DNA of 14,918 bases, from NCBI GenBank assembly GCA_014730235.1, contig WJIO01000380.1:1-14918 (forward strand), written 5' to 3'. A program made the position numbers and the translations under genes. Positions 1,389 to 14,835 of the stretch are shown one piece after another. The DNA is from Candidatus Poribacteria bacterium (GTDB taxonomy: Bacteria; Poribacteria; DTPJ01; WJIO01). Each line of letters starts with the position of its first letter. Position 1 is the first letter of the stretch. The notes under the pieces are model-generated. The model searched no databases and was not told where the DNA came from. It worked only from the letters and a program-made list of their open reading frames with translations.

Positions 1389-1529
1389 GGTTCTTCCGGG
1401 TTAAGTGCGGTAATGAAGAAAAACCCCAAATTTACAAGAAAAACTTACTTTGATTGTCATTCCTGCTTTCTCAGGAATGACAGGTTGAGAGAATTTTCAA
1501 ATTATAACCAAACTAAACCCGGGAGAACC
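1389..1529. repeat. Dispersed inverted-repeat element, copy B (141 bp)
   Basis: The ends are imperfect inverted repeats. The left end reads GGTTCTTCCGGGTTAAGTG; the right end, reverse-complemented, reads GGTTCTCCCGGGTTTAGTT. The centre has an 11-bp perfect stem TGTCATTCCTG/CAGGAATGACA (1455-1465 with 1472-1482, loop CTTTCT). The flanks ACATTATT (1381-1388) and AAATTACT (1530-1537) agree at 6 of 8 positions, compatible with a decayed target-site duplication but not proof. No protein is encoded. It lies 47 bases upstream of the start of the minus-strand UroD-like gene. With copy C it fills most of the 557-base gap between that gene and the lipoprotein; in the stretch between the copies (1530-1590) I see nothing else. 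Confidence 0.8.
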
Positions 1530-1599
1530 AAATTACTTTCAATATTAATAAATTATGTTACATTAACAAGACTGTCAGGTCAAGGTGTTTTATGAATGT

Positions 1600-1794
1600 C
1601 CAAACATAAAATTTATGTTCCTGTGTTATTGCGATAAAGTTTGATTTTTCCTGGTTCAGTGTGTTAAAGATGAGGAATTCTATATGCTATCATTCCTGCG
1701 GAAGCAGGAATGACAGGCTGAGAAAATTTTCAAATTATTACCATACTCAAACCGGAAGAGCCAAAGTTTTCACAGACATAAATTTTATGCTTGG
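1600..1794. mobile_element. MITE-like element, copy C (195 bp) with 9-bp target-site duplication
   Basis: This is the most complete copy. The outer ends are inverted repeats: left CCAAACATAAAATTTATGT, right reverse-complemented CCAAGCATAAAATTTATGT (18 of 19 identical). Inside lie the inner ends shared with the other copies (1643-1762) and a 10-bp perfect hairpin TCATTCCTGC-GGAA-GCAGGAATGA (1690-1713). The element is flanked by an exact 9-base direct repeat, TATGAATGT, at 1591-1599 and 1795-1803, directly abutting both ends. This is the signature of transposition by a DDE-type transposase acting in trans; no transposase is in the window. The right end lies 32 bases upstream of the -35 box of the lipoprotein/receptor operon, so the insertion may have altered that promoter's upstream region. 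Confidence 0.85.
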
Positions 1795-1826
1795 TATGAA
1801 TGTTGAATTAAAAAATCCGGAAATAA

Positions 1827-1855
1827 TTGACTTACTATCAGGGTTCTGATAGAAT
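1827..1855 (+). promoter_or_regulatory. Sigma70-type promoter of the lipoprotein/receptor operon
   Basis: The -35 box TTGACT (1827-1832) and -10 box TAGAAT (1850-1855) are separated by exactly 17 bases, each matching 5 of 6 consensus bases. The start codon of the first gene follows at 1899 after a GGAGGT ribosome-binding site (1888-1893). Transcription would begin near 1862. The promoter lies directly downstream of repeat copy C. Confidence 0.65.
1835..1852. promoter_or_regulatory. Candidate operator palindrome in the promoter spacer
   Basis: CTATCAG-GGTT-CTGATAG is a perfect 7-bp inverted repeat with a 4-base centre. It fills the spacer between the -35 and -10 boxes and overlaps the first bases of the -10. 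This is a classical position for repressor binding and would fit regulation of a TonB-dependent uptake operon. The regulator is unknown and not encoded in the window. The sequence does not look like a standard Fur box. Confidence 0.5.
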
Positions 1856-12023: not shown

Positions 12024-12072
12024 CAAAAAGGTAAAGAAGGACCTGGGGGATTTAGTTTGGTTTAATCGTTTT

Positions 12073-12191
12073 GGCTATTCCGGGTTCAGTGTGGTAAAGA
12101 TAAGAAACTTCTTTATGCCGTCATTCCTGCTTTTGCAGGAATGACAAGCTTAGAGAATTTCAACTATAACCACACTAAATCCGGAATAACC
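12073..12191. mobile_element. MITE-like element, copy D (119 bp) with 8-bp target-site duplication
   Basis: Inverted ends: left GGCTATTCCGGGTTCAGTG, right reverse-complemented GGTTATTCCGGATTTAGTG (16 of 19 identical). The central hairpin is an 11-bp perfect stem, GTCATTCCTGC-TTTT-GCAGGAATGAC (12120-12145). An exact 8-base direct repeat, ATCGTTTT, abuts both ends (12065-12072 and 12192-12199), as expected for a target-site duplication. It lacks the outer arms seen in copies A and C. It lies between the Gfo/Idh/MocA terminator and the phosphoinositide-PLC-like gene, ending 52 bases before that gene's start. No coding capacity. Confidence 0.85.
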
Positions 12192-12243
12192 ATCGTTTTA
12201 AACAATATGGATTATAAAATCCCTTGAAGAAAGGAAATTTAAA

Positions 12244-13383
12244 TTGCGAGTAAGAATCCTTTTAGTGGCAACCTTCTTTGCCTTCAGCTTTTCTCTGTTT
12301 TGTATAGGACAAGCAGACGAAAATATGGAGTGGATGAATAAGAACATAAAGATTAACCAGATACAGGTATTTGGTAGCCACAATAGCTACAAAGAAGCTA
12401 TTGCCCCTGCGTTGATGGAGATGATCAAAGCGGAAAACCCAAAACTTGCCAGGGAGTTGGACTACAGCCATATTTCCCTTACTGAGCAGCTTAACCTTGG
12501 TCTTCGGAAACTGGAAATTGATATTTACTACGATCCCGAAGGCGTTAGATACGCAAAACCTTATGGGATTACCAAGCTAAAAGAGATGGGACTACCCACA
12601 GGGCCCGAATATGATCCTGAAGGCTTAATGCTTAAGCCGGGATTTAAGGTGCTGCATATTCAGGATATTGATTTCCGCAGTAACTGCCTGACCCTGAAAA
12701 TATGTCTTGAAGAATTAAAAGCCTGGTCAGATGCCCACCCAACACACTTTCCTATAGTTATCACCATGAACACCAATGATGGTATAATTGACAAACCCGA
12801 TTATACCCGTCCTGTTCCTTACGATACCGAAGCCTACGATGAACTGGACAAGGAATTCCTGTCAGTTTTTCCCGCCGAAAGGATCATAAAGCCTGATGAC
12901 GTAAGAGGCGATTATGAAACCCTGGAAGAAGCCGTTCTCGCTCATAACTGGCCGACTCTGGGAGAAGCCCGGGGTAAGATCATGTTTGTGCTGGATCAAA
13001 GTAACCATAAGCTGGAGGCTTATGCCAAAGGTCATCCATCGTTAAAAGACAGGATAATGTTTGTCAATGCCACAGAAGGAAGGCCAGAGGCGGCTTTTCG
13101 TATTGTAAACGATCCCATTAAAGACTTTGATTATATAAGCCAGTTGGTGAAAAAAGGTTACATTGTTCGTACAAGGGCCGACGCCGGTACAGAAGAAGCC
13201 CGAACCGGTGATACAACACGCAGGGAAAAAGCCTTTGCCTGCGGCGCGCATATCGTAAGCACGGATTATTATAATCCTGATCCCAGGTTTGGAACTGGCT
13301 ATAAAGTAGAACTCCCCGGCGGCGTTGTTGCCCGATGGAATCCCCTGTTTGAGGACATGCCGGATTTCCCGCCTGCGGAATAG
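12244..13383 (+). CDS. Exported Ca2+-dependent phosphoinositide-specific phospholipase C-like protein
   Basis: A 379-residue protein of the bacterial Ca2+-dependent phosphatidylinositol phospholipase C group (PI-PLC-C1 type, TIM-barrel phosphodiesterase). The N-terminus MRVRILLVATFFAFSFSLF is a Sec signal peptide, cut probably near GQA-DE (21-25); SLFC is a poor lipobox, so I favour a free exported form. The catalytic region shows QVFGSHNSYK with His46, LRKLEIDIYYDPEG with Glu91 and Asp93 as likely metal ligands, and LHIQDIDFRSNC with the second His138. Later segments IVITMNTNDG, FVLDQSN and VRTRADAGTEEART complete the barrel, ending VVARWNPLFEDMP. Likely role: cleavage of phosphodiester-linked lipids or polyols outside the cytoplasm. 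The start is TTG, with AAGGAA 8 bases upstream (12231-12236). It is alone in its transcript and runs convergently into the radical SAM gene, with only 19 bases between the two stops. Confidence 0.88.
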   Translation: MRVRILLVATFFAFSFSLFCIGQADENMEWMNKNIKINQIQVFGSHNSYKEAIAPALMEMIKAENPKLARELDYSHISLTEQLNLGLRKLEIDIYYDPEGVRYAKPYGITKLKEMGLPTGPEYDPEGLMLKPGFKVLHIQDIDFRSNCLTLKICLEELKAWSDAHPTHFPIVITMNTNDGIIDKPDYTRPVPYDTEAYDELDKEFLSVFPAERIIKPDDVRGDYETLEEAVLAHNWPTLGEARGKIMFVLDQSNHKLEAYAKGHPSLKDRIMFVNATEGRPEAAFRIVNDPIKDFDYISQLVKKGYIVRTRADAGTEEARTGDTTRREKAFACGAHIVSTDYYNPDPRFGTGYKVELPGGVVARWNPLFEDMPDFPPAE

Positions 13384-14694: not shown

Positions 14695-14835
14695 GGTTCT
14701 TCCGGGTTAAGTGTGGTTATAATTGAAAATTCCCTCAGCCTGCCATTCCTGCTTTCGCAGGAATGGCAGGCAAAGTAGATTTTTCCTGTGTAATTGTGAT
14801 TTTTCTTCGTTACCACACTCAACCCAGAAAAAACC
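14695..14835. repeat. Dispersed inverted-repeat element, copy E (141 bp, opposite orientation)
   Basis: Inverted ends: left GGTTCTTCCGGGTTAAGTG, right reverse-complemented GGTTTTTTCTGGGTTGAGTG. The conserved asymmetric stretch (TTGAAAATTCCCTCAGCC) lies left of the hairpin here, so this copy is inverted relative to B, C and D. The central stem is the longest of the family: 15 perfect pairs, GCCTGCCATTCCTGC with GCAGGAATGGCAGGC (14738-14752 and 14757-14771, loop TTTC). No convincing target-site duplication is seen. It begins 35 bases upstream of the SPL-like start codon, so that gene's promoter must overlap the element, or transcription must come from further upstream. Confidence 0.8.

Follow-up and report, generated by a model that had tools for sequence, protein, structure and literature searches.

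A 195-bp element between 9-bp direct repeats

The window, meaning the whole 14,918-nucleotide stretch analysed here, is contig C325 of a draft genome of 5.53 Mb in 451 contigs that is 91.6% complete. Direct reading of its sequence places a 195-bp element at positions 1600-1794 between exact 9-bp repeats (TATGAATGT), and a repeat search of the window recovered the element ends, CCAAACATAAAATTTATGT and ACATAAATTTTATGCTTGG, as a 19-nt inverted pair with 95% complementarity (Table 1). Both results bear out the first-pass annotation, which had described 9-bp direct repeats abutting inverted ends at 1591-1803. There is no gene within the element, and its predicted fold (−61 kcal/mol) contains strong internal hairpins. 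It is a non-autonomous transposon (MITE) in which one mini-element is nested in another, and it belongs to the shortest composite subfamily of its outer family.

On the left of the element, a sigma70-type promoter (TTGACC-N17-TAACAT) whose −35 box begins 16 nt from the element end points to a URO-D-family gene (172-1341), and copy B, a core-only element, sits between this targeted promoter and the gene. On the right, a second promoter-like pair lies 32 nt from the element end, which is not the distance preferred by the family (see below), and points to an ORF ending at 2396. The duplication around copy D is an exact 8-bp repeat, ATCGTTTT, at 12065-12072 and 12192-12199. Directly downstream of copy D, positions 12244-13383 code for a Ca2+-dependent phosphoinositide phospholipase C (PI-PLC-C1, Pfam 436 bits). 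The window contig starts inside a long copy, and contigs C3, C110, C241 and C347 break inside copies near contig ends, indicating that the repeat breaks the assembly.

Table 1. Coordinates of the mobile elements and promoter-like sequences in the window.
Feature	Position	Strand	Basis or detail
Copy A, right portion of a further long element truncated at the contig start	1..158	.	
Copy B, core-only MITE, 141 bp	1389..1529	.	duplication decayed
Sigma70-type promoter facing away from the element	1555..1583	-	-35 TTGACC 1578-1583, 17-bp spacer, -10 TAACAT 1555-1560
Left target-site duplication copy TATGAATGT, 9 bp	1591..1599	.	sequence; exact match to 1795-1803
Composite MITE, 195 bp	1600..1794	-	arm B left, arm A right
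Outer terminal inverted repeat, left, CCAAACATAAAATTTATGT	1600..1618	+	repeat search
Embedded core MITE, ISL3-type ends	1643..1762	.	7-bp AAAGTTT on either side within the outer element
Core hairpin, TCATTCCTGC-GGAA-GCAGGAATGA type	1690..1715	.	sequence
Outer terminal inverted repeat, right, CCAAGCATAAAATTTATGT on minus strand	1776..1794	-	repeat search
Right target-site duplication copy, 9 bp	1795..1803	.	sequence
Second promoter-like pair TTGACT-N17-TAGAAT	1827..1855	+	sequence
Copy D, core-only MITE, 119 bp	12073..12191	.	
Copy E, core-only MITE, about 140 bp	14695..14835	.	without clear duplication

The outer ends define a family with 9-bp duplications

The end motif CCAAGCATAAAATTTATG, part of an inverted repeat (CCAAGCATAAAATTTATGTCC) with a terminal cytosine, occurs at 174 sites genome-wide when up to 2 mismatches are allowed over the first 18 bases, compared to 1 site for the reversed control. 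The statistics were computed on 81 stretches (the window and 80 others, 1.02 Mb) that were picked for carrying this motif. Ends were paired by geometry alone, blind to duplications, which gave 49 pairs lying 140-320 bp apart. Exact 9-bp direct repeats flanked 26 of the 49 pairs, with 1 mismatch in 8 more and 2 mismatches in 3; the resulting 37 of 49 pairs with at most 2 mismatches compare to 2.1% with shuffled partners, and exact duplications of 7 and of 8 bp were found once each. Two of the 49 pairs come from elements whose left end is doubled and consist of inner ends; at the true outer ends of these elements, the duplications are exact. In these two elements (6723-6959 of L052, on C25, and 4389-4670 of L063, on C120), CAAAGCATAAATTTCTTGTC(T/C)GGAT stands ahead of CCAAGC and the target duplication lies outside the outermost end, which shows that new ends can be added.

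Element lengths are mostly 163-295 bp. The most homogeneous group is that of 194-197 bp, with 10 copies in the sample and a mean pairwise identity of 0.90. A search of the genome for an empty site corresponding to a 9-bp insertion did not find one. Transposition as the long form, which had been deduced from the window copy, is upheld by dozens of long copies that have unrelated flanks and each their own, different 9-bp duplication. The long subfamily itself, previously postulated because copy A ends with the outer right arm (CATAAATTTTATGCTTGG, 141-158), is likewise substantiated by these dozens of copies.

The long form is a MITE within a MITE

The core also stands alone in this genome, bounded by GGTTCTTCCGGGTT ends and by duplications whose length is exactly 8 bp: among 51 core-only elements, the 8-bp duplication is exact in 21 and has 1 mismatch in 11, and none is exact at 6, 7, 9 or 10 bp. 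One core is inserted in a member of a third repeat family; TCATTTTT is present only once in the other copies of that family, which provide an empty site within the genome. On the two sides of the core, the longest composites retain AAAACTTT and AAAACTTC, the core's own 8-bp duplication. Conversely, the outer element exists without the core, as a 165-bp copy with the exact target-site duplication ACAAATTAT on C253 and as a second empty copy on C46. On C332, the core lies within a full outer element that has kept its hairpin, an uncollapsed intermediate with the target-site duplication CTTCAGATA. The long form is thus a MITE within a MITE, in which a core with ISL3-like ends and 8-bp duplications has inserted into an outer MITE.

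The surviving forms suggest an order of events from the empty outer element through core insertion and hairpin loss to the shorter forms. The core MITE would earlier have jumped into the outer MITE and made an 8-bp duplication of its own; thereafter the composite would have lost the outer hairpin and further segments, shrinking from 275-295 to 212 and then to 195 bp, and would have spread by way of its outer ends. In the window, the core is bounded by a 7-bp AAAGTTT, which may be the remnant of a deletion between AAAACTT repeats.

Complete ISL3 elements on Pseudodesulfovibrio and Vibrio plasmids have GGTTCATCCGG ends and exact 8-bp duplications, and this genome carries ISL3 fragments, including pieces of transposase; one ISL3 fragment ends in GGTTCATCCGG. 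Since core-only MITEs resemble ISL3 elements in having GGTTC(A/T)TCCGG ends and 8-bp duplications, we assign the core to the ISL3 type with moderate confidence. About 10 of the first 11 bases of the core ends match those of an ISL3 IS, and beyond about 11 bp the identity fades. The assembly yielded no intact ISL3 element. ISL3 was also considered as the parent of the outer ends and rejected, as it fits the core only.

Core-like ends are also found in other genera of the phylum. In G029, two elements (1406-1966 of L261 and 1481-1750 of L262) have GGTTCTTCAGGGTTAAGTGTGG ends and exact 8-bp duplications (GGTTATTG and TTATAGAG), and the same ends are present at contig ends in G004. No ISL3 transposase was detected in three related genomes, including these two. 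A third MITE family with TGTAATCGTTAAAAAATG ends occurs here at the end of C76 (L134), in L073 and in L222 (C228, 12722-13018), and L222 also holds an IS that shares these ends and encodes a DDE_Tnp_1 transposase of 402 aa. More than once, the end of this TGTAATCGTTAAAAAATG-ended family has served as an insertion site for ISL3-type core MITEs.

The outer ends insert at a fixed distance upstream of promoters

Offsets were read outward from 148 element ends, counting both paired and single ends. A −35-like TTGACA matching at least 5 of 6 bases begins at offset 16 beside 37 ends and at offset 15 beside 9, compared to 0-5 ends at every other offset. The best −10 box mostly follows after a 17-bp spacer, and the aligned consensus reads TTGAC followed by TGnTA.AAT. 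Requiring both boxes leaves 23 of the 45 outer elements with a promoter at offsets 15-17, compared to 0-3 of 45 for six other offset windows. Such a promoter stands beside none of the 49 core-only elements, 26 of 1808 randomly chosen AT-rich sites and 164 of 20000 random sites. Relaxing the boxes brings the count to 35 of 45 at offsets 15-17 and to 2-8 of 45 elsewhere; the strict match is therefore missing in about half of the elements and the relaxed match in 10 of 45. The arm nearest the promoter is arm A in 9 cases and arm B in 10. On the side that the promoter faces, the start of an ORF of 100 aa or more lies 30-400 bp downstream in 45 of 55 cases, compared to 37% at random. The outer ends thus keep a set distance from sigma70-type promoters, inserting 15-17 bp upstream of the −35 box with a peak at 16. 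Neither this promoter targeting nor the separate outer MITE hit by a core MITE could be seen by the first-pass annotation.

The insertions thereby amount to a natural promoter map: their alignment gives a sigma70-type consensus (TTGACA, a spacer of 17 bp and TG-n-TATAAT) for a bacterium that is represented here by nothing but a draft genome.

A candidate parent IS for the outer ends

Insertion 15-17 bp upstream of the −35 box, with a peak at 16, was described by Guerillot et al. (2014) for the Mutator-type transposases of TnGBS, ISLre2 and ISKra4, as a trait of p-MULT 3 and of the ISKra4 lineage; these elements make 8-9-bp duplications, have 18-39-bp repeats with a terminal C, and use both orientations when their two repeats are nearly identical (PMC3942029). 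A search of this genome with the PF06782 profile returned two loci, on C354 and C264. The locus on C354 (L285) is a 1509-bp IS with perfect 25-bp inverted ends (CCAAGCATAAAAATAATGTTCCCTT) and an exact 9-bp duplication (CCGATTTGT), so that an IS with such ends and 9-bp duplications, which the first-pass annotation had proposed to look for, does exist in the same genome. Its end is identical to the MITE end at 16 of the first 18 bp. Its transposase, an open frame of 442 aa, scores 91 bits against PF06782 (cut-off 24.3), and 152.9 and 144.5 bits against the NCBIfam models of ISKra4 and ISLre2, both under their cut-offs (205 and 200). The C264 locus is an ISKra4 member (218 bits) with other ends, which itself lies 16 bp from a TTGACA-N17-TAGAAT pair.

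The C354 IS is likely the parent of the outer MITE ends. Similarity between the IS and MITE ends stops at about 18 bp, with 2 positions differing, so that another, unassembled IS may be the true partner. No promoter lies at the expected offset on either side of the C354 IS, and its transposase (1459-2787 of L285) aligns an Asp where three relatives have the Glu of a VES motif, likely the third catalytic position; both features suggest that this copy may be inactive. The candidate was detected only through PF06782: a de novo search of 1.14 Mb for ISs bounded by 8- or 9-bp duplications and inverted repeats returned none with the MITE outer ends. Ends and duplications were also sought for ISKra4 relatives on cyanobacterial plasmids, and none were resolved.

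We consider it very likely that the outer ends are the substrate of an ISKra4/ISLre2-type, promoter-directed transposase and that the cargo is an ISL3-type MITE within a composite MITE. The enzyme would be a DDE transposase of the p-MULT group of the Mutator superfamily, such as that of C354, and a transposase of this kind would move the MITE. It would place the element end about 16 bp (15-17) upstream of a −35 box, in either orientation and with a 9-bp duplication, and would find promoters via RNA polymerase, as proposed for TnGBS.

It is improbable, by comparison, that the outer ends were moved by another 9-bp-duplicating IS, for instance of the IS4 group, that is missing from the draft. High-copy intact ISs are often lost from metagenome assemblies, and IS4 members give duplications of about 10 bp (PMC2266710). 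Against this, an IS with ends identical at 16 of 18 positions and a 9-bp duplication is already present. IS4-type families are not known to target positions 16 bp upstream of −35 boxes. An IS4/IS701-like element of this genome, present on C440 and C11, was rejected as the parent because its ends differ (CAAAAGTTTTGCAAATG).

An ordinary MITE without target preference, seen beside promoters because surviving insertions lie in intergenic DNA, is very unlikely. Survivors would be expected in promoter-rich intergenic DNA, and an ORF start is also found downstream on the opposite side in 22 of 34 cases, but such a MITE explains neither the fixed spacing nor the lack of promoters at offsets 15-17 beside the core-only MITEs of the same genome; the offset peak already refutes it.

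It is extremely unlikely that an IS1182-family element moved the ends. Two copies, on C451 and C18, start directly behind the motif CCAAGCATAAAATTTAT, and a transposase fragment matches IS1182. However, GATACTGTTGGCGAATTC forms the end of related IS1182 elements from other bacteria, several of which sit in palindromes; the motif on C451 and C18 is thus a target and not an end. IS1182 was rejected as the parent: its GATACTGTTGGCGAATTC ends are not those of the MITE, and other genomes contain the same IS1182 end with no motif beside it.

A non-transposon origin, in which recombination copies a repeated regulatory RNA or protein-binding palindrome, would fit the strong internal hairpins and the 23-bp palindromes that stand alone upstream of promoters (see below), but is extremely unlikely given the different 9-bp duplications at each site, the precise shared ends, the empty outer copies and the exact 9-bp duplications that bound two of the lone palindromes as well.

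Comparison with known systems and distribution

The element, a nested MITE that we infer to use promoter-directed transposition of the ISKra4/ISLre2 type, was compared with systems already described. It shares with ISKra4, ISLre2 and TnGBS (p-MULT 3 and 4) the terminal C, inverted repeats of about 18-25 bp, the 9-bp duplication, the 15-17-bp (peak 16) distance to the −35 box and the use of either orientation with near-symmetric ends, and a matching IS is found in the same genome. Unlike them, it lacks a transposase gene, is mostly 163-295 bp long, carries an ISL3-type MITE and hairpins, and is represented by 174 end motifs within a single genome. Mosaics are likewise built by TIMEs and similar short non-autonomous elements (PMC4133298). 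TIMEs, however, derive from Tn3 and are not known for promoter targeting. ERIC, Correia and RUP are also small non-autonomous repeats with many copies (PMC2229807), but have mostly TA-type ends in place of 9-bp duplications and a fixed promoter distance. MITEs go unmentioned in PMC3942029, and the literature searched contained no published MITE of the ISKra4/ISLre2 promoter-targeting group, though one may exist elsewhere.

Of 84 genomes of the phylum examined, the other 83 lack the end motif except for a single match with 1 mismatch, in G059, which lies inside coding sequence and was read as chance and not as a family member. Hence the MITE family looks recent or species-specific; the nearest relative among the phylum genomes compared shares only the order. 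Viral contigs gave 3 matches to the end motif, none with a partner end.

Bacterial transposons seldom direct their insertion to promoters, a behaviour described in TnGBS and in autonomous elements of the ISKra4/ISLre2 group. In the present genome, it seems to have been exploited by a passenger without genes, which left scores of copies beside promoters. The nesting shows two unrelated MITE families fusing into a new mobile unit, with intermediates still present. As the MITE preferentially lands 16 bp upstream of the −35 box, in the region in which UP elements and activators act, one could speculate, tentatively, that the copies form a dispersed regulatory layer, with the same end and hairpin upstream of dozens of promoters whose control they would change or insulate.

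Lone palindromes upstream of promoters

At eight places, nothing is present but the two ends, fused as CCAAGCATAAA(A/T)TTTATGCTTGG or nearly so, in palindromes of 23-30 bp (C93:2746-2768, C106:7562-7591, and on C353, C184, C337, C65, C269 and C440). Exact 9-bp duplications bound two of them, TGTCAACAA on C93 and TGTCAGAAC around the 30-bp form on C106, and most have TTGAC at offset 15-16. These palindromes are possibly footprints of near-precise excision: because each end of the element is a palindrome, nearly identical direct repeats of 13 bp occur at both ends, and slippage between these would delete the interior and leave a palindrome.

Two such palindromes or ends have received an IS1182 insertion. 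The two copies (2203-3139 of L098 on C451, and 1139-890 of L099 on C18, minus strand) occupy the same position in the palindrome; one is truncated, and one is interrupted by an element whose end recurs in C225 and C76.
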